NCBI RefSeq assembly: GCF_000963945.1
Contig: NZ_BAMW01000011.1
Span: 1-64,000, forward strand
Length of the DNA stretch: 64,000 nt
Origin: Acetobacter indonesiensis
GTDB taxonomy: Bacteria > Pseudomonadota > Alphaproteobacteria > Acetobacterales > Acetobacteraceae
Reading direction: 5' to 3'
The notes below the pieces were generated by a model that was given only the letters and a program-made list of their open reading frames with translations, was not told the DNA's origin and searched no databases. This document shows positions 90 through 15,892 of this stretch, piece after piece. The first letter of the stretch is position 1, and every line of letters begins with the position of its first letter. The translations under genes and the position numbers were made by a program.

Positions 90-380
90 ATGATCGGGGA
101 CAGCCCCGATCAACCACTGCACCGCCGCATCAGGGCGCAGGGAAACTTCATCGAATATGTTCCTCTCTGCCTGCTTGGCCTCGTCGTGACCGAAGCCGAG
201 ACCGCTTCCCTATGACCTGCACTGAGTATCGGTATCGCACTTGCCTGCGGGCGAGTTCTCCACGTCATCGGCATGTACGGCAATTATGCACCTCTGCGAG
301 GGCTTGGAATGGTGTTGACCTATCTCTCACTTGTTCTGACAGCACTGTTCCTGTCAGGCACAATGCTGGGCTTTGTATAG
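90..380 (+). pseudogene. Decayed MAPEG-family membrane protein gene
   Basis: One reading frame from 90 to 380 gives a protein recognisable as the C-terminal two thirds of a MAPEG family protein (membrane-associated eicosanoid/glutathione metabolism fold). It has the family hallmark RRIRAQGNFIEYVPL followed by two hydrophobic segments ending ALFLSGTMLGFV. The frame is broken by a TGA at 213-215, between the hallmark helix and the third segment. The N-terminal helix that normally comes first is missing. The single in-frame stop plus the missing start region mark it as a pseudogene. I infer it was lost in place, because the rest of the frame is well preserved. Confidence 0.7.
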
Positions 381-820
381 GCAAGATCTTGTTCCACACA
401 GGCTTCAGTGTATGGTTGGTACATCATTTTGCGAGTGACGCCGTCAACGATGCACGACTTTGGAGAAGATTACGAAAGGTCTCTCTGCCGTTTTCCTGAT
501 GCGACGACTGAAGGCCGATTGCGTCACATGACGCTCTTCCGCTACGCGTGAAAAACTCTGCACACGCGATAACGTGATGAAATCTTCAAGCCACTTGATG
601 GCCATAGAATTCTTTTATGTTGAGTTCCATTTTTAGAAAATATTTTCGGAAAGTTTGAAAGCCATTAATATTATTTTAGGTAGATAAATTTTATGATGCA
701 GCGAACTTTACTTAACATCAAAAGCAAAGTGTCAGTCAGGCGCAAAAATCTGCAGCTTATTCCACCATAGAATTCCTCACATCAACAGCGTCCAATACCA
801 TACAACGTATCTCAATTGAG
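381..820. other. Intergenic stretch with no recognisable gene
   Basis: About 440 bases between the MAPEG remnant and the end of the TSUP gene. The right half is AT-rich (for example around 600-720). I see no convincing open frame, RNA gene or repeat in it. It is probably decayed accessory DNA. Confidence 0.5.
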
Positions 821-1594: not shown

Positions 1595-1908
1595 ACCAAT
1601 AAACAAACTTTAACCTGAAGAGCCATATGAGGATTGACCCTATCCTCGACTTGCCTTCATTTTTGAGTGCGGGTCTATAGAATGATAGATTGCGTTAATG
1701 AGGCTCTACTTACAAAAGATCCATTCCAACTTTCTCAAACATAATTCCACACTAGCCCTTTCCGAGACCTGCTAATACGTAGTCACCTAGCGGACAAGGA
1801 ATAGACAACCTTTCTATGACAGGCAGCTTTCATTCTTCAGGCAGTCAGAATCTGTCCTCTGTTTATAGACTTCGAAAGTTGGACAACGCGGACGAAAACA
1901 CTCGCTAA

Positions 1909-2196
1909 GCGGGGTTTAGTTTCTGCTTTCTGCAAGATGCCAATTTGAATATTGCTGGCAGCAGGCTGCTCCTGTACCCAGACACCGACCGGACACCTTC
2001 TCCATCGCTCCCACTCGCCCAATATCGACTAGTATTGTTTGCTCCACAGTTCGCTCTTTCACATGGTTGCTAGCTTATCGCCTACCTTCTTACAGGGCAT
2101 GTCAGTGCTGCGTATGGATTACCTGCTTCTGCACTCCTGCTTTGTTTACTGACGGCAGCAGGCATCGCCCTGAAAATTAGCGTGACAATTCCATAG
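1909..2196 (+). pseudogene. C-terminal remnant of an MFS transporter
   Basis: A single frame open from 1909 to the stop at 2194-2196 encodes a stretch resembling the last two transmembrane helices of a major facilitator superfamily drug or sugar efflux protein: FAPQFALSHGC, then LIAYLLTGHVSAAYGLPASA and a final hydrophobic helix. A TAG at 2071-2073 interrupts it exactly where related proteins carry Trp (SHACW-L), so a TGG-to-TAG change is likely. The rest of the transporter is absent, and upstream of 1906-1908 the frame is closed by TAA. Family recognition is by eye and moderately sure. Confidence 0.45.
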
Positions 2197-2875
2197 CAGA
2201 AAGAAGTGCTTCTGCATGAATTTCGAGCGTATCGAGACATGATATTGAGAGCGTGACACCGTCAAACAGAAGCGGCAGTTCTGTACAGCCGAGAACAACA
2301 GCATCTATGCTGGATTCAACGGTCATTCTCTGAATGATGTTCAGAAACTCGGTCTGCGTCGCCGGTTTGACTGTTCCATGTTCCAGTTCAGTCGATATTT
2401 TTTCTACCACGAAATCGAAGTCATGTCCTGTGGGGATCACCACGTCTATTCCGACTTCCCTGAAAGGTTTCTTGAAAAAATCCTCTTCCATGGTGAAACG
2501 GGTACCCAGCAGGCCTAATTTTTTCAAACCCCGCTTTTTTGCTTCATCACGCGTTGTTTCGATAATACTTACAAGCGGTACAGAAGAATGTTCACGCAAG
2601 GCATCAAAAACAATATGAGGCGTATTGCCCGTAAGAGACACAATCTCGCAGCCCGATGCTATGAGATTATTGATGCCGTCCACGAGATAACGCGTTAACC
2701 CATCATAATCTCTGTCCGAGCAATATTTGAGAACATTGAAAACATTCAGGCTTTCTATCGTCAGATTAGGAAAAAACTCTTTTCCAACCCGCTTATTGGC
2801 TCCATAAACAATTTTCTTGTAGTAAATGAGCGTGGATTCCGGACCTGTCCCACCAATTAAGCCAAGTTTTTTCAT
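2177..2875 (-). CDS. Aspartate/glutamate racemase family protein (YgeA/EcL-DER-like)
   Basis: A cytoplasmic enzyme of 232 residues of the cofactor-independent Asp/Glu racemase superfamily. It begins KKLGLIGGTGPESTLIYY, the phosphate/substrate loop typical of the YgeA branch. The second catalytic Cys is Cys197 in VVLGCTELPLL. The position of the first catalytic Cys (usually CxNT) is Thr82 in SLTGNTPH. From family knowledge, the E. coli L-Asp/Glu-specific racemase has the same Thr/Cys arrangement and works mainly in the L-to-D direction. The start is the ATG at 2875, preceded by GGGAGAAG at good spacing; an upstream TTG (2890) lies on that ribosome site and is rejected. No neighbour shares an operon with it. 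Confidence 0.85.
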   Translation of the reverse strand: MKKLGLIGGTGPESTLIYYKKIVYGANKRVGKEFFPNLTIESLNVFNVLKYCSDRDYDGLTRYLVDGINNLIASGCEIVSLTGNTPHIVFDALREHSSVPLVSIIETTRDEAKKRGLKKLGLLGTRFTMEEDFFKKPFREVGIDVVIPTGHDFDFVVEKISTELEHGTVKPATQTEFLNIIQRMTVESSIDAVVLGCTELPLLFDGVTLSISCLDTLEIHAEALLSAMELSR

Positions 2876-3063
2876 ATCCACTTCTCCCAATACCCAGATT
2901 TCTGCATCAGAATGCAGAATGTCTGCCCTTTTATCGTAACGCGTGGCTTTCGGTCACTCAAGATTGCCCTGTGTCGGCATAAACACAAAACACTCTGGGT
3001 CACCAGATCAAAAATCATGCCGCTTTTTCGAAATAGAATGTTTTTACGCCTAGCATTTTACCT

Positions 3064-3663
3064 TCAGTCTCTGGAAGTGTTTATCTGTGGGTAAGTAATA
3101 TGGCGGCTGCTATCAATAATCGCAGATTCAATGAGGTGCGCGGGAACGGCATCCGTCATGGACAGAATATGAAAGACTGTCACCCCGTGGGCCAGGAGAT
3201 AGTCAGTAACGATGCGCCTGTGACAGCGCCACCAGAGCACTTCCGCGCACATGATCGCAACAGTCGCCCGCTGTCCCGCCTCGATAAGCCGGACGAGACC
3301 TCGGTGAAAATCTTGCCCAAGCGCATAATCTGCATAATTATGAAAACTCTGGACACGCCAGAATGCGTTGGTCTCCGCAGGCACCGTCTTCAACCGTGGC
3401 CGTCGTCCACCAAGCTCTGGAAAATGACTATATCCGATCCCCTGTGTCGCCAGTTCCGGCTGGAGACTGGTGCCATCATAGTCTCGATTACGCCGGGAAT
3501 ACGGAAAAGCCCTCACATCCGCGATCAGTGTCACGCCATAATGACGCAAAAGCGCGATAAAATCAGATAGTGCAAGCGTGGAATGCCCAATGGTGTAGAA
3601 TGGATGACAAGAAGATGATCTTGCCTCCCCTGCGAGGTTCACATTGGATACGGAGTTTTCCAT
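3064..3663 (-). CDS. DUF488 domain-containing protein
   Basis: A protein of about 199 residues with the full DUF488 pattern: FYTIGHSTLALSDFIALL near the N-terminus, then DVRAFPYSRRNRDY, FPELGGRRPRLK, a central YADYALGQDF and MCAEVLWWRCHRRIV. The last segment holds the conserved Cys and the WRCHR motif. The biochemical role of the family is not established. The chosen ATG (3661-3663) overlaps the ATG of the divergent DUF2945 gene (3662-3664) inside one CATG tetramer. The frame stays open upstream to 3744, so a longer product is possible, but homology begins only at the YTIGHS segment. Confidence 0.8.
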   Translation of the reverse strand: MENSVSNVNLAGEARSSSCHPFYTIGHSTLALSDFIALLRHYGVTLIADVRAFPYSRRNRDYDGTSLQPELATQGIGYSHFPELGGRRPRLKTVPAETNAFWRVQSFHNYADYALGQDFHRGLVRLIEAGQRATVAIMCAEVLWWRCHRRIVTDYLLAHGVTVFHILSMTDAVPAHLIESAIIDSSRHITYPQINTSRD

Positions 3664-3877
3664 GCCGTCACAAACTTTCCAGATCGGAGACATCGTATCC
3701 TGGAACTCGGAAGCGGGATACGTCAGTGGACGGATCAAAGCCATTCATACGGCGCCCTTTCTGGTCAACGGCTATCAGCATCACGCGACGGCAGAACACC
3801 CTCAATATGAAATAGAAAGCCTTAAAACCAGTCATATCGCCTTTCACAAAGGCACGGCCCTGACACTTGCTGAGTGA
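3662..3877 (+). CDS. DUF2945 (hypervirulence-associated, Tudor-like) small protein
   Basis: A 71-residue cytoplasmic protein matching the DUF2945/HVA1 family along its whole length. It starts QTFQIGDIVSWNSEAGYVSG, has a central IKAIHTAPF and ends with the diagnostic HPQYEIESLKTSHIAFHKG. The family has a small SH3/Tudor-like barrel and no proven reaction. The start at 3662 is chosen because GGAG lies 7 bases upstream and homology begins right after it. An ATG at 3644 would add six unconserved residues. It is transcribed away from the DUF488 gene with overlapping start codons. Confidence 0.85.
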   Translation: MPSQTFQIGDIVSWNSEAGYVSGRIKAIHTAPFLVNGYQHHATAEHPQYEIESLKTSHIAFHKGTALTLAE

Positions 3878-4053
3878 CTGGATCATCTCCTGAGCCAGCA
3901 TCAATGTAGAGACAGACGGATTGGCTGAGGTGATCAGAGCACAGAGCACCACATCCAGAATCGGGGTAACAGACGTGAGTTTCGCAACAAGCCTCTCATG
4001 ACAGAGATTGTCCGGCCCAATCACTCTTTTATTGGCGCACGCATGATCTGCTC

Positions 4054-4908
4054 TCATGATAATTCGTAATTTTTCTCTTGGCAGATGGATTGTTCGCAAA
4101 TGCGGAGAATATTCCTCTCGCTGCAAAGCTTTATATAAGCTGCAGGACTGTGTCCCGTGATCTTCCGAAATAGTGCCGCGAAAGCGCCCGGACTTTCATA
4201 ACCGACGTTACGTGCGACACTCGTGACCCTCTCCCCACGTGCCAACCGTTCCTGTGCATTGAGAATACGCAGCCGCTGACGCCACGCCGTAAATGGCATT
4301 CCCGTCTCCACTCCGAAATACCGAACAAAGGAACGCACTGACATGGAAGCGACGATCGCCCATTCCTGCTGCTCGCGCACATCTGCAGGGTTTTCGCTCA
4401 ATGCATCAGCCACACGACGCAAACGCTCATCTTTGGGAAAAGGCAAAGAAACTGACGCACGAGGCAAGGGCAAAAACTCATCCCAGAAGCTTTCGGCCAG
4501 ACGGGCAACAACATCGCTCCATGACTTAGCTGACGAACAATGCGATAGCCGCTCGGCTTGCGCGATCAAAAGAGGCGTACCACGCACCAGAAATGGCTGA
4601 ACAGGTAACGCCGTAGACCGGGCTTCATCAATAAACAGGCTCCAGCCGCGTATAGCCCCGTGCGAACGAGCCATGTGACGCAGGTGAGGCGGCAGCCACA
4701 CTGCCTGCCCCGGTCCGATCAACCAGTAAGCCTCGTCCGTCCGTATGCTCATGACTCCATAAGTGATTCCGAAAATCTGGCCACGAGAATGCGTGTGAAA
4801 GTCCGCAAACCGACGTGTCTGCTGCCGCATATGACCACCCAGCAGCCAGGGAAGATCTGCTTCAGAATTTCCCATGCAAGGTGGGATCAGGGACAATGTG
4901 GCGCACAT
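4054..4908 (-). CDS. AraC family transcriptional regulator
   Basis: A 284-residue protein with an N-terminal cupin-like sensor half (HTHSRGQIFGITYG, GPGQAVWLPPHLRH) and a C-terminal double helix-turn-helix at about residues 185-265. The second HTH contains VTSVARNVGYESPGAFAALF and the final FRKITGHSPAAYI typical of AraC. The HTHSRGQ and WLPPHLRH motifs place it with the cupin-sensor AraC regulators that often act on nearby efflux or reductase genes. It is divergent from the reductase gene at 5008, about 100 bases away, so control of that gene is the obvious inference. The start could be the ATG at 4875 instead. Confidence 0.85.
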   Translation of the reverse strand: MCATLSLIPPCMGNSEADLPWLLGGHMRQQTRRFADFHTHSRGQIFGITYGVMSIRTDEAYWLIGPGQAVWLPPHLRHMARSHGAIRGWSLFIDEARSTALPVQPFLVRGTPLLIAQAERLSHCSSAKSWSDVVARLAESFWDEFLPLPRASVSLPFPKDERLRRVADALSENPADVREQQEWAIVASMSVRSFVRYFGVETGMPFTAWRQRLRILNAQERLARGERVTSVARNVGYESPGAFAALFRKITGHSPAAYIKLCSERNILRICEQSICQEKNYELS

Positions 4909-5007
4909 GAGTCGAAATCTGGCCTACGGGACGAAGCACGCCAAGTTTTATCTTGTTAACATCGCGCTTGGACCAACACGCACTTTATACAGTCAAGGAG
5001 TATGCTC

Positions 5008-5889
5008 ATGAAAATTGGATTTATCGGGCTAGGAGCCATGGGTCATCCTATGGCCAGGCGGCTTCTCGATGCGGGGCATCATCTTGTTGTTTATAATCGC
5101 ACGACTGCGAAGGCCGCTGATCTTGTCGCTCAAGGTGCTATCCTGGCCGACACACCAGCCGCTGTCGCGCGGGAAGTCGATATCGTTTTTTCGATGCTCT
5201 TTGACGACGCCACTACCCAGGAAATAGCCTTCGGCACAGACGGGATCGCAGCCGGACTATCCCCGAAGGGCGTTCACGTCTGTTGCAGTACGATTTCCCT
5301 CGCCCAAGCGCGCCGTCTGCGCGACGATCATGCAGAGCGGGGGCAGATTTATGTCAGCGCGAATGTTCTCGGGCGCCCACCCGCAGCGGAAACAGGAACA
5401 TTATTCGTCATGGCGGCAGGTGATTCCGATGCGCTGGACCGTCTGGAACCAGCACTCACATGTTTCGGTCCCCATGTCTTCAGGTTGGGTAATGATCCCG
5501 TTCAGGCTAATCTCGCCAAGCTGTCTCTGAACTTCATGATTTACTCGACCATCGAACAGATGGCGGAAGTATTCGCTCTCAATGAAAAGGCAGGGACTGA
5601 TCCACGTAAGATCTTCGAGGTTATGACAGGCAGTTTCTATAATGCTCCGGTCCACAAAAATTACGGTAAACTGATGGTCGAGCATGATTACGATTATCCC
5701 GGCGCGCCGGTAACACTCGGCCTGAAGGACGTCAAAATGTTTATGGACGCTGGCGGGGATTATGGTGTGCCGCTACCTTATGCCTCTGTCGTCCGAGATC
5801 GCCTGCTGAGTGCGATCAGCGCCGGAGACGCCGATCGAGATTTCGTCGTACTGTTGGAACGCGTGCGACAGGAAAGCGGTTTGAAGTAA
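5008..5889 (+). CDS. NAD(P)-dependent oxidoreductase, 3-hydroxyisobutyrate/6-phosphogluconate dehydrogenase-like
   Basis: A cytoplasmic beta-hydroxyacid dehydrogenase of 293 residues. The N-terminal Rossmann motif is KIGFIGLGAMGHPMARRLL. The substrate-binding region, normally DAPVSGG, reads SANVLGRPPAAETGTL, as in the imine-reductase/GLYR-like branch. The catalytic Lys is probably in NLAKLSLNFMIYS. The second half is the helical domain (GLKDVKMFMDAG). It could reduce a small 2- or 3-oxo acid, an aldehyde or an imine; the substrate is unknown. AAGGAG lies 7 bases before the ATG at 5008, which excludes the ATG at 5002. It is divergent from the AraC regulator. Confidence 0.85.
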   Translation: MKIGFIGLGAMGHPMARRLLDAGHHLVVYNRTTAKAADLVAQGAILADTPAAVAREVDIVFSMLFDDATTQEIAFGTDGIAAGLSPKGVHVCCSTISLAQARRLRDDHAERGQIYVSANVLGRPPAAETGTLFVMAAGDSDALDRLEPALTCFGPHVFRLGNDPVQANLAKLSLNFMIYSTIEQMAEVFALNEKAGTDPRKIFEVMTGSFYNAPVHKNYGKLMVEHDYDYPGAPVTLGLKDVKMFMDAGGDYGVPLPYASVVRDRLLSAISAGDADRDFVVLLERVRQESGLK

Positions 5890-6148
5890 GGGCGGACGGA
5901 AGCTGAGCAAAAATATCCAAAGTTCCCCGAAAAAGGGACAAAACGGGTTCCCGTGCTCATGGACAGTTCACGATGGGGTCCTTATCACGCCATCGAACTG
6001 GGAGTTTTCCAAATCGGACAGAAAAGGCCGATTTCGCCATTGAGCCCGCAGAATGACTCCGTCCATGGACGATAGGCCCGGCATTTCGGCGCCTGGCCTC
6101 TATAAACAGCCACACTTAAGACCTTGAGAGCGAGATCGGCGCTCTGGA

Positions 6149-7084
6149 TCAGCCAAATCTTTCGGTAGCAAAGAACTCGACCAGTCGATCGACCACATGG
6201 CGGATCTTCGGGCTCAGATGTGACGTTTGCGGCCACAGTGCGTGAACATCGACCGCCCGCTTCGTATAATCCTCAAGAACCGGGATCAGGTCGCCCTTTT
6301 CAATATGCGTTCTGACAATCGGCATAGGAAATTGGCATAGACCGAAACCAGCCCTCGCAGCTTCGACGATCGCGTCACCATCGCCAAGCTCGAAGGTCGG
6401 CGGAGCGTCTATGCGCCTATCTTCTCCGTCGATCCTGAACCACCAACTCAACGGTCGACCGCGACGATATCCGACAATGCAGGCGTGGCTCCTCAGATCA
6501 TCAGGTGACGCTGGGGCGCCCCTGTCTTCTAGGTAAGCCGGAGACGCGCAGGTGACCAATTTATACGTAGCGAGCTTCCTTGCGATAAGTCCATCGCAAT
6601 TCTCCAAGTCCCCAAATCGGATGACCAGATCAACGCCCTCGGCTATGGGATCAATGACAAAATCCGAGAACGTCATAGTCAGTTGAAGCCTAGGATAAGG
6701 CCGAGCTATCTCCAGCAGGAGAGGCAACATCACGGATCGACCGAACGATACAGGCAAATCTATGCGCAACCTGCCTGTGAGATTTTGCCTGCTCGTCGTG
6801 AGTGCGGCTTCCACCCCCAATATCTCGTCGAGGGCATTCGCGCAGGTCGCAAAGTAGACTTCGCCATCCACAGTCAGCCCAATTTTGCGCGTGGTACGAT
6901 TAAACAACTGCATGCCCAGACGGTCCTCCAGCCGGGAAATACTCTTTCCGACCGCGGACTTCGTGACACCAAGCTGAGCAGCGGCAGCCGTGAAGCTGCC
7001 TGCCCGTGCAGCCGCGACAAACGCAACCACACCACCGAGATGATCGAATTCGGACACCTCGCCCCTCCTTCCAAAGCCGCTCAC
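6149..7084 (-). CDS. LysR family transcriptional regulator
   Basis: A 311-residue regulator with an N-terminal winged HTH (AFVAAARAGSFTAAAAQLGV, then SAVGKSISRLEDRLGMQLF) and a C-terminal LysR substrate-binding domain from about residue 95 (LTGRLRIDLPVSFGR to the end). It is divergent from the luciferase-like monooxygenase at 7387. A perfect 7-bp inverted repeat with a 5-bp spacer sits 19-37 bases upstream of its start. It most likely represses itself and controls the flavoenzyme genes. The first ~10 residues may be extra; homology starts at FDHLGGVVAFV. Confidence 0.9.
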   Translation of the reverse strand: MSGFGRRGEVSEFDHLGGVVAFVAAARAGSFTAAAAQLGVTKSAVGKSISRLEDRLGMQLFNRTTRKIGLTVDGEVYFATCANALDEILGVEAALTTSRQNLTGRLRIDLPVSFGRSVMLPLLLEIARPYPRLQLTMTFSDFVIDPIAEGVDLVIRFGDLENCDGLIARKLATYKLVTCASPAYLEDRGAPASPDDLRSHACIVGYRRGRPLSWWFRIDGEDRRIDAPPTFELGDGDAIVEAARAGFGLCQFPMPIVRTHIEKGDLIPVLEDYTKRAVDVHALWPQTSHLSPKIRHVVDRLVEFFATERFG

Positions 7085-7102
7085 TGTAGAGATTGAGGAT
7101 AC

Positions 7103-7121
7103 TATCCTACTCCTTAGGATA
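7103..7121. promoter_or_regulatory. Perfect inverted repeat, likely LysR-type operator
   Basis: TATCCTA (7103-7109), a 5-bp spacer, then TAGGATA (7115-7121). It lies between the LysR regulator start and the monooxygenase gene. Size and symmetry fit a LysR-type box with dyad symmetry. A further half-site, AGGATA, begins at 7097. The binding protein is inferred from position only. Confidence 0.6.
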
Positions 7122-7386
7122 CCTTTATCAAGTTGTGGAGAACGATAAATATGTCACTACGCTGAGCCTCCGTGACGTTCTCATGACAAGGTTCAGCCCT
7201 GCCAGCGGCGGTTGTTCGGGAACGGCCACGTGCAGAACTGCACCTAGCCTTCTGGTGTGCTGTTCACTCTTGTTCGCAAGATTGATCCGTTCAACGGTCA
7301 AGCCATACAGCCCGCGAGCTGGTCATCTGGTTTTCGAGAACCGGCGGTTCTGGTGCCTTGAGGCGTCCCGTTGGAAAGGAGTTGAA

Positions 7387-8376
7387 GTGACAAAACTGTC
7401 CATCCTCGACCTCGTCATGATCGGTGAAGACAAGGATCTCGCCACCTCTTTGCAGGATACCGTTCGCCTTGCTCAATGCGCCGAGCGTAGCGGCTATCAG
7501 CGATACTGGATTGCCGAACATCACAGCATGCCCGGGATCGGTTCTGCCGCGACGACGCTCATCATGTCACATGTCGCGGCACATACGTCGGCGATCCGCG
7601 TCGGCTCGGGCGGCATGATGATGCCCAATCACTCCCCGCTTATCGTCGCCGAGCAGTTCGGCACGCTCGACACTTTATATCCCGGGCGGATCGACCTTGG
7701 CGTGGGACGCGCGCCCGGCTCGGACAGCTCTGCCATGCGAGCAATAAGGGGTATTTTCCCGCAGCAGCGCGAACTCTCCGAGGACGTCACAGCGTTGCTC
7801 GACTACCTCGCCGACAATGGTAGGCAGCCGGCTCGCGCGATCCCGGGCCAGCATGACGTGCCGCTCTGGATCCTCGGTTCTGGCCTGCACGGCGCAGAGC
7901 TTGCGGCGACGCTAGGGCTTCCTTTCGCCTTTGCTTCCCACTTCGCCCCGCGGCATTTGCTTGAGGCCATTGCGCTTTACCGCCAGCATTTCCGTCCCTC
8001 ACAGTATCTGGCAGAACCTTATGTCATTGCCGGATGTTGCGTGTTTGCCGCCGATACGAAAGAAGAAGCCGTATTCCTCGCGAGTTCTCACCAGAAGTGG
8101 GTCGCCAATCTGCACTCCGGTCGGTCGGGTCTGCTTCCCAAACCCGTGCATAACTTCATGGAAAGCCTGCCCGTCAACATGAGGACGGGTCTGCAACAGG
8201 AACTCGCCTACTCCGTCATAGGCACACGCAAAGAGGTCGGTAATTGGTTGCGTGCCTTCGCGCAGCAGACATCGGCAAACGAACTGATGATTGATGCGCG
8301 GATCTACGATCCGGCAGCACGATGCCGATCTTTCGAGATCGCTGCGGCAGCTCTGTCCGCTTCCATTCCTGCATAA
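7387..8376 (+). CDS. LLM class flavin-dependent monooxygenase (luciferase-like)
   Basis: A protein of 329 residues of the bacterial luciferase-like, FMN/F420-type superfamily. Motifs seen are the N-terminal SILDLVMIGEDKDL, RYWIAEHHSMPG, the loop VGSGGMMMPNHSPLIVAEQF and TLYPGRIDLGVGRAPGSD. These are the usual signs of the MsnO8-type oxidoreductases, which use reduced flavin to oxidise an unidentified substrate. The start is a GTG at 7387 with GGAAAGGAG 5-6 bases upstream; the frame is open upstream to 7093, but that part has no family similarity. With the old yellow enzyme downstream it forms a flavoenzyme pair, probably under the divergent LysR regulator. Confidence 0.85.
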   Translation: MTKLSILDLVMIGEDKDLATSLQDTVRLAQCAERSGYQRYWIAEHHSMPGIGSAATTLIMSHVAAHTSAIRVGSGGMMMPNHSPLIVAEQFGTLDTLYPGRIDLGVGRAPGSDSSAMRAIRGIFPQQRELSEDVTALLDYLADNGRQPARAIPGQHDVPLWILGSGLHGAELAATLGLPFAFASHFAPRHLLEAIALYRQHFRPSQYLAEPYVIAGCCVFAADTKEEAVFLASSHQKWVANLHSGRSGLLPKPVHNFMESLPVNMRTGLQQELAYSVIGTRKEVGNWLRAFAQQTSANELMIDARIYDPAARCRSFEIAAAALSASIPA

Positions 8377-8560
8377 TCCCGCAAGTTGCAGGCTTCTCTC
8401 CGTTTAAGTGCCACCATGTCGCTCAGATGATGTGTAAGGCCGCATGCAAATGATGCGCATGCCTTGTGAACGACCTTCTGAGGGACGTCAGAAATGGAAA
8501 TGTCCGCTCCAACAATCAGAGAAAGCGGCAACGGGTGACATACAATACTTCAGCACCGTC

Positions 8561-8599
8561 GTCCCATTACTGTTTCCTCAAAGGAAACAGTAATGGGAC
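8561..8599. repeat. Perfect 18-bp inverted repeat with 3-nt loop
   Basis: The arm GTCCCATTACTGTTTCCT (8561-8578) is repeated exactly as its complement at 8582-8599, with CAA between. It lies 68 bases before the start of the old yellow enzyme gene. No T-run follows on either strand, so it is not a standard terminator. It could be an operator for a dimeric repressor, an mRNA hairpin or a mobile-element scar. Confidence 0.8.
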
Positions 8600-8667
8600 A
8601 TAAAGAGGAATTGTTCTCTCAATCGTGCAGATACACAGTGAGAATTCATATTCTAAAGAGGGCAACG

Positions 8668-9780
8668 ATGATCGATCTTTTTAAACCCTATTCGTTTGCA
8701 GGCCATCACCTAAAAAACCGCTTCGTCATGGCCCCGATGACCCGCGCTCGACGCCCGGACTACATCGCCGACGCCGAGACGGCGCTATACTACCGTCAGC
8801 GCGCGACGGCCGGCCTTATCGTAACCGAAGGCACTCCGGTCTCGCCAGAAGGTCAGGGCTACATCAACGTTCCTGGCATCTGGTCAGAGGCACAGGTCGC
8901 CGGTTGGAAACTGGTGACGGATGCAGTGCATGAAGAAGGTGGCACGATCTTTGCTCAGCTTTGGCATGTCGGTCGCATGTCGCACGTCTCTCTGCAACCA
9001 AATGGCAACGCCCCCGTCAGTTCGACCGCAACGCCCGCTCGGGATCCCAAAAGTCAGGCGTTCATCTATCTGGCAGATGGATCGACCGGCTTCGCCGAAC
9101 CGAGTGTACCGCGTCCATTGGGGACGGAGGAAGTCGCGCGCGTGGTGGCAGATGTCGCCAAAGCCGGCCGTAATGCTCAGGCTGCGGGTTTCGATGGCGT
9201 TGAACTGCATTCCGCAAATGGCTACATCTTCGAACAGTTCCTCAACCCGATTCTGAATACCCGGGACGATCGCTACGGCGGTGCGCTCGAAAATCGTGCT
9301 CGCATCGTCCTCGAAACTATTGACGCGCTCATCGCGGAGATTGGTGCATCACGCGTTGGTATCCGGCTGGCACCGTTCAACCGACAGTTCGACATGCCCG
9401 CCTATGACGACAATGGCGAAACCTATCTCTACCTCGCCCGTGAACTTTCGGCACGCGGCATCGCCTATGTCCATCTTAACGACAACTGGGCCGCCGGGCA
9501 TTCGGTCATCGGAGAGGACTTCCTGCGGCGCTTTCGGAACGCTTTCGACGGCACACTAATTCTAGCAGGCGCGATGACGCTCGACCGCGCGCAGAAACTC
9601 GCGGACGCCAACCTGATCGACCTGTCGGCATTCGGTCAGCCGTTTATCGCCAATCCCGACCTAGTCGCCCGCCTGCGCGAAGGTGCCCCACTCGCGACCC
9701 CGAACCGCGCAACCTATTATGGTGGCAGCGCAAAGGGCTACGTTGATTATCCGACACTGGCCGACGAAAAGCGCGCCTGA
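8668..9780 (+). CDS. Old yellow enzyme family alkene reductase (NemA-like)
   Basis: A 370-residue FMN-binding TIM barrel of the OYE family. It starts DLFKPYSFAGHHLKNRFVMA (FMN site with the MAPMTR motif), has FAQLWHVGRMSH, the substrate-binding HSAN in VELHSANGYIFEQFLNP, and DDRYGGALENRAR. Family members reduce electrophilic alkenes, quinones or nitro compounds with NAD(P)H. The start at 8668 is supported by AGAGGG upstream and by homology starting there; the 25 residues before it read through the inverted repeat region and are not conserved. It probably belongs to the same response as the upstream monooxygenase. Confidence 0.9.
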   Translation: MIDLFKPYSFAGHHLKNRFVMAPMTRARRPDYIADAETALYYRQRATAGLIVTEGTPVSPEGQGYINVPGIWSEAQVAGWKLVTDAVHEEGGTIFAQLWHVGRMSHVSLQPNGNAPVSSTATPARDPKSQAFIYLADGSTGFAEPSVPRPLGTEEVARVVADVAKAGRNAQAAGFDGVELHSANGYIFEQFLNPILNTRDDRYGGALENRARIVLETIDALIAEIGASRVGIRLAPFNRQFDMPAYDDNGETYLYLARELSARGIAYVHLNDNWAAGHSVIGEDFLRRFRNAFDGTLILAGAMTLDRAQKLADANLIDLSAFGQPFIANPDLVARLREGAPLATPNRATYYGGSAKGYVDYPTLADEKRA

Positions 9781-10055
9781 TTTATCGGGGCATTCCCTGC
9801 ATCGCATCCTATGAGGTGGTATAACCACGTTGCCCGCGGTCGTGCCGCCTACATAACCTTTCCAACCGATGGGAATATTTTTTAGCAGTTTCCTTCGTTG
9901 AGCGCGCAAACCATAACGCCACATCTACCTCCACATCGCCCAAAAATGGAGAAACAGTCTGCATAGACCTCAAAAAATACAAAACTCACACATGCCATCG
10001 TTAAATGACACCACAGTTCGAACACGGTTTTTAAAAATCGTTAATTATTCTATAC

Positions 10056-10538
10056 TTATTTAGATTGAACAGGCAATGAAGTTGTGTACTTTACCTGCTC
10101 AAGCGAAAAGCTGGATCGTATATTCGAAACACCTGGTATTTTTGTTAAAACATTCAACATAAATTTTTGATAGTGCATCAAATCCTTGATGACCACGCGC
10201 AATAAAAAATCGGCCTCCCCTGTCATAAGATAGCATTCCATAACTTCCCGTCGTATGGCTATGGCTTGAGTAAATTGATCTAACGTCTCCTTGTCTTGGC
10301 GCTGAAGTGTCACGTTAATGAACACATTGACGGCCAGATCCAATTTAATTGGATCGACCAGCATGACCGCACCTTTAATGATGCCTTTTTCCCGCATCTC
10401 AGCGACACGCCGCCAGCAAGGTGAAGGAGACAAGCCGACACGCTCCGCCAGTTCGGTATTCGTGATTTCTGCGTTTTCCTGCAAGATTTCCAGAATTCTG
10501 AGGCTGGCATTATCGAGCGCTATATTGTTATCGGACAA
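10056..10538 (-). CDS. Lrp/AsnC family transcriptional regulator
   Basis: A regulator of about 160 residues. The N-terminal HTH is LDNASLRILEILQENAEITN followed by TELAERVGLSPSPCWRRVAE; the C-terminal RAM/AsnC ligand domain covers about residues 70-150 (MTGEADFLLRVVIKDL). Family members sense amino acids. The start is a TTG at 10538 with GGAGG 5-6 bases upstream; the frame extends upstream to 10622, but that stretch lies before the ribosome site and is not conserved. It is divergent from the EamA transporter at 10674, which suggests amino-acid-responsive control of the transporter-PhzF-RidA genes. Confidence 0.9.
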   Translation of the reverse strand: MSDNNIALDNASLRILEILQENAEITNTELAERVGLSPSPCWRRVAEMREKGIIKGAVMLVDPIKLDLAVNVFINVTLQRQDKETLDQFTQAIAIRREVMECYLMTGEADFLLRVVIKDLMHYQKFMLNVLTKIPGVSNIRSSFSLEQVKYTTSLPVQSK

Positions 10539-10673
10539 TTTTACCTCCGTGACGTTCTTGTGAGGAATTTTTTTCCGATAATAGACAAAACAGAGACAAA
10601 AAAGGAAATTCTTTTCGGGCAACCAGACATACTTTTTAGGTCATCATATTCACGCGAAAACTAAGGCCTGACC

Positions 10674-11693
10674 TTGTCCATAACACCCGATCTGAAACGC
10701 GATGCTCCCCCAGCCCTGACCATCATGTGGCTTTGCGTCATGGTTGTTTTATGGGGCGTGAGTTGGCCAGCCACCAAACTGGCATTGAATAGTGTTCCCC
10801 CTTTGTGGCTGGCTGCTATCCGGTTCGGCAGCGCGTCTATCTGCCTGTTCATGTTTGTCGCATGGAGAGGGAAACTCAAGCTCCCTGCTCGTGCCGACCT
10901 CCCGGTTGTAATCAGCATGGGCGTTCTACAGATGATGGCATTCACCGGACTGGGAATGGTCGCAATGACGTATACTGACACCAGCCATGCTGTTCTTCTT
11001 GCCTACACAACCCCTTTATGGGGCGTATTGGGAGCATGGCTGTTACTCAAAGAGGTGCCATCCCGCCTGCAAGTCATTGCGGTTGCCATTGGACTGGCTG
11101 GCATCGCCCTGATCTGCTCACCATTTGAAATGAACTGGAGAGCACCAGGTGTATTCATGGGGTGCGCTTTCCTTATTGGAGGAGCCATCGCCTGGTCTGT
11201 GACTATCCTGCATATCCGTCATCATAAATGGCACGACAGCCCTTTGTCTCTTGCTCCATGGCAGATGGCGCTCGCCACAGTGCCCCTTGCTGCGTGTGCA
11301 TTCTATGTGGAAGGCAAACCACGTTTTTTATTAGCTGACGTGAGACTTCTGTCGCTCCTGATTTTTATAGGACCAGTTGCAACATCAGCCTGTTTTGTCA
11401 TTTCTGCGGAGCATGGCCGTCGGATAACGACGTTCGCTATGTCAAACCTCACTTTGGGAGTACCACTGCTTGGGATCGCAGCATCGTGTCTTTTTCTTGG
11501 AAGCCACCTAACGGGTGTCTTTCTGGCTGGCCTGATACTTGTTTGTTTTGGAGCTATTCTTGCGGCGCGTTCCAATGGCCTATCCTCGAAAGTTTCTCTC
11601 AAGGCACCAAAAGTCAGCGTCCCGCAGAAGATTGCTAACCTCCCGGAGAAGTGGCGCGATCTGATGTCAATCGAAAACACAGAAAACCGTTGA
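10674..11693 (+). CDS. EamA/DMT superfamily transporter
   Basis: A 339-residue inner-membrane protein with about ten hydrophobic helices in two EamA repeats (VVLWGVSWPATKLALNSVPP in the first; SAEHGRRITTFAMSNLTLGV and a following LGIAASCLFLG in the second). Members export amino acids, purines or other metabolites. The proposed start is TTG at 10674 with AAGG upstream; the next ATG (10725) falls inside the first helix. It is followed after 11 bases by the PhzF gene, so the two are probably co-transcribed under the divergent Lrp regulator. A polar tail of about 45 residues follows the last helix. Confidence 0.85.
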   Translation: MSITPDLKRDAPPALTIMWLCVMVVLWGVSWPATKLALNSVPPLWLAAIRFGSASICLFMFVAWRGKLKLPARADLPVVISMGVLQMMAFTGLGMVAMTYTDTSHAVLLAYTTPLWGVLGAWLLLKEVPSRLQVIAVAIGLAGIALICSPFEMNWRAPGVFMGCAFLIGGAIAWSVTILHIRHHKWHDSPLSLAPWQMALATVPLAACAFYVEGKPRFLLADVRLLSLLIFIGPVATSACFVISAEHGRRITTFAMSNLTLGVPLLGIAASCLFLGSHLTGVFLAGLILVCFGAILAARSNGLSSKVSLKAPKVSVPQKIANLPEKWRDLMSIENTENR

Positions 11694-11704
11694 AAGGAAA
11701 TACT

Positions 11705-12562
11705 ATGAGTCGCGATTTCAAAATTGTAGATGTTTTCAGCTCTACTCCGCTCAAGGGGAATCCTGTTGCTGTTGTACTAGATGCCGATGGACTGAACACA
11801 ACACAAATGCAAGCAATCGCTGGTTGGACAAACCTGTCGGAAACAACATTTCTGTTGCCCCCAACTCAGCCGGGCGCGACCTATAAGCTGCGTATCTTCA
11901 GCCCTCGCAACGAGCTGGACTTCGCTGGACACCCCACACTCGGGAGCGCATTTGCCGCGCTCGAGGCAAAACGCGTTTTTCCGACAGAGGGGAAAATCAT
12001 TCAGGAATGTGGTGTCGGCCTGGTTACCCTCCACGTGGAGGATACCCATCTTTCTCTCACGCTGCCTGAGCCAAAACTGAAAGCTGTTACTGAGGAAACC
12101 ATTTCAGAAATAGAAACCATTCTCGGGCATTCTGTGTCCAGAACCGCGTCTCCCGTGACTGTAAATACAGGGATTGTTTGGATTGTAGCCTATATCCCGG
12201 ATGCGAAAGACGTTTTGACTATCAAGCCAAATTTGGAACGCCTGACAGCTCTCTCTCATAAATTGAATGTCACTGGCGTGACAGTTTTCGGCGATAAGGA
12301 ACACTCGGGCGAGATTGAAGTTCGGACATTCGCGCCGGCATGTGGCATCGAAGAAGATCCTGTCTGCGGCAGCGGAAATGGTAGTGTTGCGGCTTTCCGC
12401 CAACATTATAAACTTCTGGAAAAACAGGTAACGACCTATATTGCCAGTCAGGGCCAAAAAGTTGGTCGCAACGGGAAGATAACCGTTAATTACAGCGAAG
12501 ACGGTCAAATTAGTATTGGTGGTTCGTGCATCACAACGGTGGACGGCAAATTAAACATTTAA
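11705..12562 (+). CDS. PhzF family isomerase
   Basis: A 285-residue PhzF/YddE-type protein with two diaminopimelate-epimerase-like halves. Signatures are VFSSTPLKGNPVAVVLDADG, NLSETTFLLPP with the catalytic Glu46, LDFAGHPTLGSAFAALE and EEDPVCGSGNGSVAAF. The real phenazine PhzF isomerises a dihydroxyanthranilate, but most homologues have unknown substrates, and no other phenazine genes are here. The start at 11705 has GAAAGGAAAT upstream. It sits between an EamA transporter and an exported RidA protein, suggesting work on a small amino acid or enamine. Confidence 0.9.
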   Translation: MSRDFKIVDVFSSTPLKGNPVAVVLDADGLNTTQMQAIAGWTNLSETTFLLPPTQPGATYKLRIFSPRNELDFAGHPTLGSAFAALEAKRVFPTEGKIIQECGVGLVTLHVEDTHLSLTLPEPKLKAVTEETISEIETILGHSVSRTASPVTVNTGIVWIVAYIPDAKDVLTIKPNLERLTALSHKLNVTGVTVFGDKEHSGEIEVRTFAPACGIEEDPVCGSGNGSVAAFRQHYKLLEKQVTTYIASQGQKVGRNGKITVNYSEDGQISIGGSCITTVDGKLNI

Positions 12563-12645
12563 TGTTAAAACTTATAATAATGCACGGTATGGGGTTAGTT
12601 GTTCAACATCATACCTTGCGTGATTTATATTCCTAACAATGAAAA

Positions 12646-13113
12646 ATGAAAGGTTTGCGTTATGTTTATAAAAGCAAAAGGTCTTTTTGTATCGCTTGGG
12701 CTTTTTTTCTGCCTGTTCTGGCACATGCAGAATCATCCACTCATTTTTATTCAGCGGAAGAAAAAGATGTACCTTTTTCCTCCGCTGTGCAGGTGGATAC
12801 TATTCTCTACCTTTCCGGTGTAATTGGCATCGATAAGAACGGGCACCTTCCTGACGGTTTTGGCGATCAGACAAGAAATGTTATGAATAATATTGCAGAA
12901 TTACTTCGTAAATCTGGAGCAGATTTTTCAGACGTTTTTAGGTGTAGTGTTGCTGTGACAGACGTCAAAAATATACCGGAGTTTAATCGGATTTACCTGT
13001 CACATTTTTCGCAAGGTCACTATCCAGTGCGTATGGTTTACGGTGTTTCTGCACTTGCTCTCGGTGCCTCAGTGGAAGTGCAGTGTGACGCACATCATAA
13101 TGTAAAGAAATAA
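12646..13113 (+). CDS. RidA family protein with signal peptide (periplasmic)
   Basis: A 155-residue protein. Residues 1-28 form a signal peptide (Lys/Arg-rich start, hydrophobic CIAWAFFLPVLAHA, likely cleavage before ESS). The rest is a RidA/YjgF/UK114 fold: VPFSSAVQVDTILYLSGVIG, DQTRNVMNNIAELLRKSGAD and YPVRMVYGVSALALGASVEV. The Arg (129) and Glu (144) that bind the imine substrate in RidA are both present. RidA hydrolyses reactive enamines/imines, normally in the cytosol; the export signal is unusual but occurs in some family members. It follows the PhzF gene by 83 bases. The ribosome site is weak. Confidence 0.85.
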   Translation: MKGLRYVYKSKRSFCIAWAFFLPVLAHAESSTHFYSAEEKDVPFSSAVQVDTILYLSGVIGIDKNGHLPDGFGDQTRNVMNNIAELLRKSGADFSDVFRCSVAVTDVKNIPEFNRIYLSHFSQGHYPVRMVYGVSALALGASVEVQCDAHHNVKK

Positions 13114-13145
13114 TAGAATATCCATCGGGTATGAGTGATCTTTCC

Positions 13146-13505
13146 TGAACCTGCCCCCTGAAATACCCTCTATTTGAAGAGAAGTCTGTCCACTGGAGAC
13201 AGACGATGAAGAAAGAGGTTTCAATTATCGAGAAGCGGCTCCTGATGGAGAGCGTGATGGACGTCTCGACGCTGAAGGAACTGCTGACAAAAAAACTCAT
13301 GACGCCCAGCTTGCGGCGAAATGCTGCGACCTGGGCGATTACAGAGCGGAGTTACACGGAACGCCGTGCGTGCCAGTTGGTCGGCATTGATCCGAAGACA
13401 TGGCACTATGCGTCGTACCGTCCGGACGATAAGGGAGCGCGTGCCCGGCTGCGGGATCTGGCGGAGAGCGGCGCCGGTTCGGGTGTGGAATTCAACGCAC
13501 AATAG
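13146..13505 (+). mobile_element. Degenerate IS3-family fragment
   Basis: An IS3-type left end beginning TGAACCTGCCCCCTGAAATA is followed at 13206-13505 by a 99-codon frame. The middle of that frame is the orfA tail and orfB start of an IS3-family element: MDVSTLKELLTKKL, then RRNAATWAITERSYTERRAC and RPDDKGARARLRDLAE. The N-terminal HTH of orfA is deleted, a two-base duplication (GA) near 13472 shifts the frame just before the usual RRRFG, and everything after about 13500 is lost. It cannot transpose by itself. Confidence 0.75.
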
Positions 13506-13650
13506 AATTTGATTTATGCGAAAATAATTTAAGAAATATTATTTTATTATATATATTTAATGAATACATACGGATTAATTTCCGTATATATTTTATATGT
13601 ATTTATATAAATAATTTATCATTTAGAAAATATTTTTTCTATTCTGCTCC
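13506..13650. other. Very AT-rich spacer of unknown origin
   Basis: About 145 bases with almost no G or C, very unlike its surroundings, between the IS3 fragment and the IS5-type element. It contains a small inverted repeat, ATACGGA (13568-13574) and TCCGTAT (13581-13587). I see no gene in it. Confidence 0.6.
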
Positions 13651-13655
13651 ATCCA

Positions 13656-14883
13656 GAGAGGGAGATGATCAATCGGTTTCTGTAAGATTATAAGTTAGCA
13701 CCTGGATGGTTCGAAAAACCTTCTGATTTTAGGTCTTTCTCTGTGATTCCCTCTCTTGTATGATGATTGGGAGGGGAGGGATGGCCCATGAGGCAGCCCG
13801 GTTTCTTTGATGTTGACGAGTGCCTTGCCCGATTAAGCGGGCTGGGGGATCAGCTTGAAGCGTTTTTCCAGACTGTGGGTTTTGAGTTGTTCCGTCTGGA
13901 GCTGCACAAGGCGCTGGCGTATGCGGATGGTAGCAAAGACGGCCATCCGCCCTTTGAGGCGGTTCTGATGTTCAAGATCCTGGTGATCCAGACGCTGAAC
14001 AATTTGTCTGATGAGCGAACAGAATACCTGATCAATAACCGGCTCTCCTTTATGCGTTTCCTTGGTCTGGGACTGTCGGACCGCATGCCTGATGCCAAAA
14101 CGGTCTGGCTGTGTCAAAAGCGTCTGACACAGGCGGGAGCAATTGATGTTTTGTTCAACCGCTTTGATGCGATCTTGCGGAATACCGGTTATCTGCCAAT
14201 GTCAGGCCAGATCCTGGAGGCTACACTGGTAGCGCCCCAAAGCAGCGCAATACCAACGCTGAAAAGACGGCTCTGCGGGAAGGACGGATCCTCTCAGGAC
14301 TGGCAGGACAAGCCGTCAATGCTATCCCACAAGGACCGTCATGTGCGCTGGATACTGAAGTTCACGAAAGCGAAGCGACAGGAGGACGAGAGTATACCCG
14401 CAACATATCTGGCCATCCTGTTCTTTGGCTACAAATCGCACATTTCCATCGATCGGAAATTCCTGCTGATCCGTAAATGGAAGGCGACCGATGCAGCAAC
14501 CAGCGATGGCGCGAGGGTCTGCTGGATAAAACCAATATGTCATCAACAGTTTGGGGGGATACGGCCCTATCGCTCAAAAGCCAATGAGGACTTCATGGAC
14601 AAGCATGGCTTTGTCTCGAAGGTTCACAGGAAGAAGCCGCTTCTCAAGCCTATGCCACGGCATATCCAGAGATCCAATGCCGGAAAATCCATTATCCTGT
14701 CGCGCGTCGAGCATGTCTTTGCTGATCAGAAATCACAGACGGGGCTGTTCGTCCGAACCGTAGGCATCGCTCGAGCCACCATGAGGATCGGGCTCGCCAA
14801 TATCGTCTATAATATGAGCCGCTTTCTCCTCCTGAAGCAGATTAAGGCCGCCACGTAGCAATCCAGAGCATGAGACCCTCTCT
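13656..14883 (+). mobile_element. IS5-family insertion sequence (inactive)
   Basis: The element is defined by the transposase gene at 13788-14858 and a right end reading CCAGAGCATGAGACCCTCTC (14863-14882), typical of IS5-group ends. The left end is less clear: GAGAGGGAGATGATC at about 13657 matches only the outer seven bases of the right end. No convincing target duplication is visible, so boundaries are approximate. Confidence 0.55.
13788..14858 (+). pseudogene. IS5-family transposase with compensated frameshifts
   Basis: A 356-codon frame starts MRQPGFFDVDECLARLSGLG and ends with the conserved SRVEHVFADQKSQTGLFVR. Two internal stretches are read in the wrong frame. Between about 14238 and 14300 the expected PKQRNTNAEKTALREGRI is present one frame over. 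Between about 14517 and 14565 the expected GLLDKTNMSSTVWGDTA is also one frame over, so the second catalytic Asp (GDTAY) is lost from the product. The first catalytic Asp position is Glu (GQILEATLV). The frame is open by compensation, but the enzyme must be dead. GAGGGGAGGGA precedes the ATG at 13788. Confidence 0.85.
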
Positions 14884-14948
14884 CTGCGCAAAACGCAGAG
14901 TGAAAATCAGATCCACGAACCAGCAATTAACACACCAAAAACCCAAAA

Positions 14949-15659
14949 TCAGTCAAAAGAGGAAACAATCAACGGTTCTTCGATCCCTCCAGCTGGAATA
15001 AGCTCGACTTGATGAAAGAGATGCTTAAGCTCTTCCAGATCTATCAGAGCAGGCTGGCGTCCTTTAATTAAAGGGGCGAGTGCACCCTTGATAACGGAAG
15101 CAGGATCATGCCGACCAAGACCATGCGCCATACCAAACAGAAAAATAGCACTTAACCGCTGACGCACTCTTCGCGCAGTTTCCTTTGCTCGGCGGGCTTC
15201 AATTTTCTTGATCGTCTCCAGAACCATCGGTGCTGTGATCTCGTCCAGATCGATATGCCCCAGATCGGGCCACGCAAGGCGTTCCAAACTGGTGCGTACG
15301 TCTTCCGCATGCCGCGGTGTCCAGCGCGCGGATTGGGCTTTCATCCACTCTTCGCCCACGTGCTGAAGTTGCTTATCTACACGCTTGGCCTCGGCCTGAC
15401 GCTGGCGTCGCGTCAGGGACGGATCACGACCGGCCCGGAGTTCGACGCGTGCTTGATCACGTGCCTCCCGGGCTGCCGCCAATGTCACCTCAGGATAAGT
15501 CCCAAAGGAGAGTAGTTTCTCCTTCCCGCCAAAACGATATTTCATGCGCCATAATCGGGATCCGCTAGACTGCACGAAAATGAACAGTCCGCCTGTATCC
15601 GAAAGCTTGTATGGTTTCTCGCGTGGCGTGAGGCGACGCAACTGAACATCTGTCAGCAT
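14949..15659 (-). pseudogene. Tyrosine-type integrase, 3'-truncated (DUF4102 N-terminal domain)
   Basis: About 236 residues of a P4/prophage-type integrase. The N-terminal DUF4102 domain is clear (LTDVQLRRLTPREKPYKLSD, then GGLFIFVQSSGSRLWRMKYR and SFGTYPEVTLAAARE), followed by the core-binding SAM-like domain to about residue 210. The catalytic domain with the R-H-R-Y residues is missing: the frame ends just beside the IS5-type right end, so the insertion probably removed it. The start is ATG 15659 with GGGGG upstream. It reads away from the adjacent tRNA-Ser gene, the usual place for such an integrase to have inserted. Confidence 0.85.
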
Positions 15660-15661
15660 CA

Positions 15662-15691
15662 ATACCCCCACCCTTGAAATGATACCCCCAC
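15662..15691. repeat. Two direct repeats ATACCCCCAC before the integrase gene
   Basis: ATACCCCCAC occurs at 15662-15671 and again at 15682-15691, a 20-bp period, between the integrase start and tRNA-Ser. The spacing is about two helical turns. They could be integrase arm sites or operator sites; the function is inferred from position alone. Confidence 0.55.
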
Positions 15692-15802
15692 AATGCTTGA
15701 GCTTGAAGGAACATCACGGAGCGTCATAAAGTGCACAAACAGCAGAAAACCGCCAGTGTTTATGCGAAATAAGCGCTATGGACTGTCATGGGATATATCA
15801 GA

Positions 15803-15892
15803 TGGCGGAGAGACAGGGATTCGAACCCTGGGTACTATTGCTAGCACAACGGTTTTCGAGACCGCCCCGTTCGACCGCTCCGGCATCTCTCC
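15803..15892 (-). tRNA. tRNA-Ser (anticodon CGA)
   Basis: On the minus strand the gene begins GGAGAGATGCCGGAGCGG, has the anticodon stem-loop with CTCGAAA (anticodon CGA, reading UCG), a long variable arm as in class II tRNAs, the T loop GGTTCGAATCC and the 3' acceptor CTCTCCG followed by an encoded CCA. It is 90 bases long including CCA. The integrase gene lies 144 bases beyond its 3' end, so its 3' part is the likely attachment site of the island to the left. Confidence 0.95.

Follow-up and report, generated by a model that had tools for sequence, protein, structure and literature searches.

A predicted exported RidA beside an Lrp-EamA gene pair in Acetobacter indonesiensis: a possible island-borne cassette for amino-acid export and periplasmic imine quenching

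The window analysed here, a stretch of 64,000 nucleotides of Acetobacter indonesiensis (contig NZ_BAMW01000011.1, positions 1 to 64,000), holds four neighbouring open reading frames (ORFs) at 10056-13113, in which the gene of an Lrp-type regulator on the minus strand is divergent from the genes of an EamA transporter, a PhzF-type protein and a RidA protein on the plus strand. The reading that we tentatively favor, with a probability of about 0.41, is that these genes form an acquired, newly assembled, island-borne cassette, which would combine Lrp-controlled amino-acid export with quenching of imines by RidA in the periplasm. The layout and the four family names, as a first-pass annotation of the stretch had given them, are borne out by matches in Pfam and NCBIfam.

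The RidA protein starts with a Sec-type signal (MKGLRYVYKSKRSFCIAWAFFLPVLAHA, followed by ESS) that comprises five lysine or arginine residues, a hydrophobic core and an AHA cleavage motif. A complete Rid domain follows at residues 42-150 (PF01042, 86.7 bits against a cut-off of 27.3), and export is predicted, in agreement with the first-pass annotation. Homologues of at most 50% identity still carry signals. The arginine and glutamate that had been described as intact, R129 and E144, align with those of solved RidAs, R129 being presumably the counterpart of R165 in Arabidopsis RidA, which forms a salt bridge with bound pyruvate (PMC4960622; this and the other papers cited by PMC number are drawn on in part). 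The catalytic arginine (Arg105 of RidA) is the stated predictor of deaminase activity in Rid proteins (PMC5619798), and the window protein has it. The active-site residues are in place; activity and a periplasmic location are predicted. The protein falls outside the archetypal RidA subfamily (TIGR00004, 78.1 against 106.25 bits), and Phe44 replaces the tyrosine of the GPY motif. A protein-database search, which sees only relatives with shared 5-residue words, returned four proteins at E <= 1e-3, three at 89-91% identity and one at 39%, the latter with a lipobox-like start. The signal region 12646-12733 is open in two frames, from ATG 12646 and from ATG 12662 (MFIKAKGLFVSLGLFF...). The former start is shared by the relative P0001 (90%), while the latter frame resembles the start of P0002 and P0003 and is favored by an AAAGG; a one-base change near a T-run would swap the two start codons with the signal retained.

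Predicted export of a Rid protein is not a quirk of this genome, as a clade of such proteins exists. A profile scan of genome-collection contigs gave 95 Rid relatives; the analysis uses the 80 best loci, 62 of them with at least 3 kb on both sides. With signals called by a hydrophobicity threshold (H >= 1.75) and not by SignalP, a signal or lipobox was present in 38 of the 80. In five further loci, from Hyphomonas, Ponticaulis and one alphaproteobacterium, Rid is the C-terminal domain of an 821-837-residue protein that starts in a signal-like manner and also contains an amidohydrolase domain. The other 37 have no signal, four of them (L006, L021, L033, L040) no start codon usable by the test. 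The exported rows are spread over Pseudomonadota, Bacteroidota, Verrucomicrobiota and Myxococcota. On a tree of 85 of 86 rows (L040 dropped), built from few columns and with many open forks, the exported label clusters (7 changes versus a shuffled mean of 28.7), and the rows nearest the window RidA are all exported, though with support of only 86-92 apart from a close trio (97). Both its signal before a complete domain and its grouping place this protein in the clade. No paper on an exported Rid clade was found in the open-licence literature consulted, and the words 'signal', 'periplasm' and 'secreted' do not occur in the part of PMC4433059, on Rid families, that was available.

The catalytic residues are kept in nearly all of the 48 exported or fused rows, which include the window protein, P0001, P0003, P0004 and P0247: R129 and E144 in 47 each and N114 in all 48. 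The clade shares the Rid domain and the catalytic Arg and Glu with the described RidA/Rid1-7 families (PMC4433059, PMC5619798). It differs from them in having Phe44 (46/48) where all 24 canonical rows have tyrosine, and Cys147 (46/48 versus 0/24). In-clade rows without a signal often have these residues as well (Phe44 12/12, Cys147 8/12), indicating that Phe44 and the cysteines mark the clade and not export. We considered a Cys100-Cys147 disulphide but discarded the idea, because C100 lies within one search pattern, an ascertainment bias, and in-clade rows without a signal often have both cysteines.

The genomic surroundings of exported Rids are mixed, and no single common partner was found among the 24 of 198 listed neighbour ORFs that were scanned; they include ThiC, M28, M3 and S10 peptidases, amidohydrolase, GST, AraC, Aldedh and valyl-tRNA synthetase. 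An Lrp-type gene occurs in 6 of the 80 Rid loci, and in four of these (L030, L031, L035, L050) it is convergent and directly behind the fused Rid; in L030 an S10 carboxypeptidase-like ORF lies upstream of the fusion. In three sphingomonad-type loci thiC is directly upstream of the exported Rid (L009:5572-7479, L018:5908-7899, L036:5887-7917). L034 and L067 hold ORFs sized like thiC, and a like-sized ORF in L014 is an AAA ATPase. An M28 peptidase gene is divergent from Rid in three loci (L022:6102-7811, L029:6149-7822, L044:6038-7759), and divergent ORFs of similar size are found in L023, L040, L042, L057 and L065.

The genome of the window has six Rid matches, and one of them offers a context for periplasmic Rid chemistry. 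On another contig, a 174-residue Rid with a clear signal (cleavage between SAHA and DS) is the third gene of a row that begins with a flavin amine oxidase (PF01593) with a Tat-like start (RRQLLTRIG) and continues with a signal-bearing cytochrome c. The row resembles the lao-cccA-ridA operon known from Gluconacetobacter diazotrophicus, also of the Acetobacteraceae, where Rid likewise stands in an amino-acid context and where lao mutants made no indole-3-acetic acid (PMC5053998). The authors of that paper suggest a periplasmic L-amino-acid oxidase (LAAO) and refer to a Chlamydomonas complex of LAAO and RidA located in the periplasm; a statement that RidA itself is exported was not found in the part of PMC5053998 drawn on. 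The Chlamydomonas LAAO with its RidA-like M-beta subunit is similar in placing a Rid outside the cytoplasm together with an amino-acid oxidase, and different in being a physical complex of a eukaryote (PMC5053998). The window RidA itself has no LAAO and cytochrome c beside it and is only 26% identical to the Rid of the lao row, a row that in turn has no Lrp, EamA or PhzF. Owing to the presence of the lao-cccA-ridA row, a likely imino-acid source and a Rid of matching predicted address coexist in this genome. The view of the first-pass annotation that RidA is normally cytosolic needs to be qualified accordingly, given both the exported clade and this second exported Rid.

The other conserved element of the locus is the divergent Lrp-EamA pair. 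EamA matches at E <= 1e-40 occur in 8 of 49 genus genomes, own included, and in six of the seven others an Lrp gene (56-64% identity) is divergent from EamA (51-69%); the seventh EamA (36% identity) has no divergent Lrp. On plasmids, 5 of 30 records with EamA relatives were examined, and three (Neorhizobium, Thioclava, Rhizobium, but not two from Klebsiella) have a divergent Lrp/AsnC gene. Neighbours of the EamA relatives include genes for homocysteine methyltransferase, aminotransferase-type proteins, ACC deaminase, a pyridoxal-phosphate (PLP)-dependent enzyme with its own Lrp, and ABC importers, one with an SBP_bac_3 binding protein. Several such PLP enzymes can release enamines. These neighbours and its family fit the window EamA being a likely amino-acid exporter, and its control by Lrp is plausible from the conserved arrangement. 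The lrp-brnFE genes of Corynebacterium are an Lrp-controlled amino-acid exporter with the same divergent layout, although BrnFE belongs to another transporter family and is accompanied by neither PhzF nor RidA. In the phylum sample EamA was found at E <= 1e-70 in 1 of 299 genomes (own), a count that may miss relatives, as only about seven candidates were scored in EamA-rich genomes.

Within the cassette, EamA and PhzF are separated by 11 bases, with a ribosome-binding site (AAAGGAAA) ahead of the PhzF ATG, and PhzF and RidA by 83 bases. The regulator combines a winged helix-turn-helix with an AsnC ligand-binding domain, and its best PDB matches are Lrp/AsnC regulators; as it scores 127.8 bits, under the Lrp equivalog cut-off of 233 (NCBIfam), it is not Lrp itself. 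Its ORF had been called too long, the most likely start being TTG 10538 behind GGAGG. The transporter has the two EamA repeats of the EamA/DMT family (PF00892 in two stretches), matches TIGR00950 below its cut-off and stays below the NCBIfam equivalog cut-offs for the characterised amino-acid exporters YedA, EamA/YdeD and YddG; a search for a solved relative found none. The nearest solved relative of the window PhzF is yeast YHI9 (PDB 1ym5, 181 bits; PhzF 1t6k, 90 bits). Its domain and the alignment of E46, H76 and D218, which we take to be the Glu/His/Asp active site, with residues of 1t6k place it in the PhzF isomerase family, though it is neither part of a phz operon nor closest to true PhzF, and the scanned flanking genes include no phz gene. 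In 10539-10673 promoter signals did not exceed chance; promoter predictions numbered 7 versus 6.5 in shuffles, and terminators 7 versus 4.2 (standard deviation 2.3).

Groupings of PhzF, EamA and Rid recur in other genomes. On two Klebsiella plasmids a MocR gene, with GntR and aminotransferase domains confirmed, is divergent from PhzF-EamA-RidA-YbaK, with the EamA domain also confirmed. EamA, aminotransferase, Rid and PhzF are consecutive in genome G516, and the last three of them also in G514, a second genome of its family (f56). A spirochaete metagenome-assembled genome (MAG) has all four families within 10 kb (L071), in an order and orientation different from those of the window; this locus contains Lrp, PhzF, a beta-eliminating lyase, two aminotransferases, RidA, an Asp/Glu racemase, an SNF-type symporter and EamA. 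L071 and L185 extend the co-occurrence of EamA, Rid and PhzF to two further lineages. An Asp/Glu racemase gene is found both in L071 and among the island genes of the window.

The frequency of such groupings was assessed at 60 PhzF loci of the phylum sample, taken as one place per genome, roughly by E-value, from 123 genomes with a match (omitting two Acetobacteraceae and second places in a genome), against 39 control stretches at hand-picked positions, mostly about 1 Mb away and partly in the same genomes. Rid lies within about 4 kb of PhzF in 3/60 loci versus 0/39 controls, Lrp near it in 1/60 versus 0/39, and MocR-like genes in 17/60 versus 0/39, the last count including plain aminotransferases. 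For EamA the figures are 4/60 versus 1/39, with a narrow profile; the hits at the four loci are weak (E-values of 3e-6 to 5e-5), while that in the control has 3e-25. L185, the one of the four that was examined further, was confirmed as EamA. Of 42 plasmid records with PhzF, 12 were examined, and a 'PLP-dependent aminotransferase family' gene is annotated near PhzF in 7, a DMT transporter in 3 and RidA in 2; five more Klebsiella records like NZ_CP042975 lie outside those 12. A published analysis of MocR regulons predicts a link of PhzF with DMT transporters and lists RidA in five MocR regulogs (PMC5320631). From the recurrences in Klebsiella, G516 and L071, the PhzF-locus counts and the published regulons we conclude that the association of PhzF, EamA and Rid is real but loose. 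The window shares with the MocR regulons the adjacency of PhzF and EamA, and it differs from MocR-type loci as on the Klebsiella plasmids in that its regulator is of the Lrp type, its RidA has a signal and its EamA is of another subfamily. A PhzF gene 41% identical to that of the window is also present on the 5.5-kb plasmid pGE3 of Komagataeibacter europaeus (NC_024995.1, L302:1984-2826), adjoining a replication gene as one of only five annotated genes.

These observations suggest how the cassette might work. The regulator would sense an amino acid and switch on EamA and PhzF, perhaps also RidA, as the conserved divergent pair hints. EamA would move the amino acid, or the product of PhzF, out of the cytoplasm, in line with its family and neighbours. 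In the periplasm, an oxidase such as the predicted exported LAAO of the lao-cccA-ridA row would turn amino acids into imino acids, and the window RidA, like the lao-operon Rid, would hydrolyse the imino acid to a keto acid and ammonia before it does damage. PhzF is probably a side-branch enzyme in the cytoplasm that isomerises a small amino or enamine acid. We infer the substrate, the regulation, the co-transcription and the link to the LAAO. The cassette looks as if assembled by horizontal transfer from two modules, Lrp-EamA and PhzF/Rid.

Table 1. Features of the four-gene locus, its flank and related loci; coordinates refer to the window unless a locus handle is given
Feature	Position	Strand	Basis
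Lrp/AsnC-family regulator, 160 aa from TTG	10056..10538	-	PF01037, PF13412; ORF open to 10622
Divergent intergenic region, 135 bases, candidate Lrp operator/promoter	10539..10673	.	coordinates
EamA/DMT-family transporter, 339 aa, likely amino-acid exporter	10674..11693	+	PF00892 (two stretches); relatives 51-69% divergent from Lrp
PhzF-family isomerase, YHI9-like, 285 aa	11705..12562	+	PF02567, TIGR00654
RidA-family protein, 155 aa, predicted exported	12646..13113	+	PF01042; homologues with signals
Predicted Sec signal peptide of RidA, residues 1-28, cleavage between AHA and ESS	12646..12729	+	sequence
RidA Arg129 codon (carboxylate-binding Arg)	13030..13032	+	alignment to solved RidA
RidA Glu144 codon	13075..13077	+	alignment to solved RidA
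IS5-type transposase copy, just downstream of cassette	13767..14858	+	PF05598
Cut tyrosine integrase, arm-binding and central domains only	14949..15671	-	PF13356, PF22022; no catalytic-domain match
tRNA-Ser(CGA), likely island attachment site	15803..15892	-	ARAGORN
lao-cccA-ridA row (amine oxidase, cytochrome c, 174-aa exported-type Rid)	L297:11140-13704 (G000:C180)		
Amidohydrolase-Rid fusion	L030:5844-8357, also L031, L032, L035, L050		
Spirochaete MAG locus, all four families within 10 kb	L071:1704-11590		

Several observations weigh against this proposal, the first being the absence of the arrangement elsewhere. Protein and DNA searches of the genus sample (49 genomes), the family sample (150 genomes), the phylum sample, the genome collection (80 Rid loci) and the plasmids examined turned up no second instance. 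The co-occurrence across relatives that the first-pass annotation had put forward as a check thus failed, with 0 of 48 other genus genomes, and among the 80 collection Rid loci only the spirochaete L071 has EamA or PhzF at all, making it the one place with a looser foursome. At E <= 1e-15 RidA matched two of the 150 family genomes, this one and G071, and at E <= 1e-10 it matched 3 of 49 genus genomes, the other two being 124-residue matches at 33-36% on other contigs than their EamA; a DNA search of the genus gave no RidA match outside the own genome. Beyond the samples searched for the arrangement, metagenome contigs hold copies of PhzF at 85-96%, of EamA at 94% and of RidA at 89-91%. PhzF is common in the family (85/150 genomes at E <= 1e-20), and in G173, the only other genus genome with DNA matches to both, it lies 0.9 Mb from EamA. 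No EamA is present within 1.5 kb at six genus PhzF loci, and no PhzF or RidA within about 1.5 kb of EamA at the seven other genus EamA loci. In the groupings outside the genus, the Klebsiella RidA (128 residues) and the spirochaete RidA (125 residues) have no signal, and the Klebsiella EamA aligns with that of the window in short pieces only. The LAAO is encoded on another contig than the cassette, and PhzF and RidA would act in different compartments.

Composition and position point in the same direction. The cassette has a GC content of 0.471, compared with 0.576 for 16-64 kb, where none of 90 three-kb segments falls below 0.547, and it likely lies at the edge of a low-GC island, as an IS5 copy, a cut integrase and a tRNA-Ser gene stand at the end of 1-15.9 kb. 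At the DNA level the IS5 copy is 79-86% identical to IS5 transposases carried by Acetobacteraceae plasmids (best 20 of 53 records), and no second exact copy (at least 12 bases) of the tRNA-Ser 3' end, as a far attachment site, was found in 1-15780. The GC content at third codon positions (GC3) of RidA, 0.321 versus 0.483-0.524 for its three neighbours, suggests a separate origin, and together with the 83-base gap RidA may be a separate arrival. Further genes in 1-15892 encode TauE, Asp/Glu racemase, DUF488, AraC, a hydroxyisobutyrate-type dehydrogenase, LysR, a luciferase-like protein and OYE. A 99-residue ORF at 13206-13505, with no Pfam match, ends before the IS5 copy and presumably resembles part of an IS3-type transposase.

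These points can also be taken to mean that the four genes are chance neighbours on a mobile island, with Lrp-EamA alone forming an amino-acid exporter and PhzF and RidA being separate arrivals with unrelated jobs. This explanation, which we regard as possible but somewhat doubtful, accounts for the uniqueness of the arrangement among the genomes searched, the island edge, the deviating RidA composition and the distance of PhzF from EamA in other genus genomes. It sits less well with the 11-base spacing of EamA and PhzF with a ribosome-binding site between them, with the groupings in Klebsiella, G516 and a spirochaete, and with the PhzF-DMT link predicted from MocR regulons (PMC5320631). The same regulons could indicate a cassette for vitamin B6 or protection of PLP, in which, as in MocR (PdxQ-type) regulons, a B6 vitamer or a damaged PLP adduct is dealt with by PhzF and EamA and enamine damage to PLP enzymes is prevented by RidA, Lrp having here replaced MocR. 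PdxQ regulons hold PLP genes, DMT transporters and a PhzF-like COG384, and five regulogs in four groups include RidA (PMC5320631); the MocR-like hits near PhzF loci, plain aminotransferases counted in, agree with this. We nevertheless consider such a role unlikely, as no pdx gene or MocR is present among the flanking genes scanned, the regulator is Lrp and not PLP-sensing, and a RidA sent out of the cytoplasm would be unable to shield the PLP enzymes inside it.

A further alternative is that RidA is cytoplasmic, its hydrophobic start being an annotation or frameshift artefact upstream of a later translation start. Such an artefact could be suspected from the lack of a clear Shine-Dalgarno sequence before ATG 12646, the AAAGG ahead of the out-of-frame ATG 12662, the starts of P0002 and P0003, which look as if in the 12662 frame, and the 37 of 80 homologous loci without a signal at H >= 1.75. 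Against it stand the shared start form of P0001, the different signal of P0002 and P0003, which also ends in AHA, the signals retained by distant homologues and the lack of an in-frame ATG between signal and Rid domain, making a cytoplasmic RidA improbable. Of the export-and-detoxification role that the first-pass annotation had assigned to the four genes together, plausible Lrp control of EamA, the amino-acid context, predicted RidA export and the PhzF-EamA-Rid groupings elsewhere speak in favor, while the separation of the genes in relatives and the base composition of RidA speak against it.

RidA is the model of pre-emptive repair of reactive enamines and has been studied mostly in the cytoplasm, mitochondrion or chloroplast. 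The existence of an exported Rid clade with kept catalytic residues and amidohydrolase fusions indicates that reactive enamines are probably formed beyond the cytoplasm as well. We hypothesize, with some hesitation, that periplasmic damage control is the task of this multi-phylum clade of exported, lipid-anchored or amidohydrolase-fused proteins, which the cassette would couple to Lrp-controlled export; if so, amino acids pumped out and oxidised in the periplasm would be made safe there. The cassette would also connect the uncharacterised PhzF/YHI9-type enzymes with amino-acid transport and with the chemistry of PLP enzymes. Since acetic-acid bacteria use the periplasm to oxidise many compounds, they are a natural place to test a periplasmic role of Rid, and the present genome has two predicted exported Rids, one of them beside an L-amino-acid oxidase.

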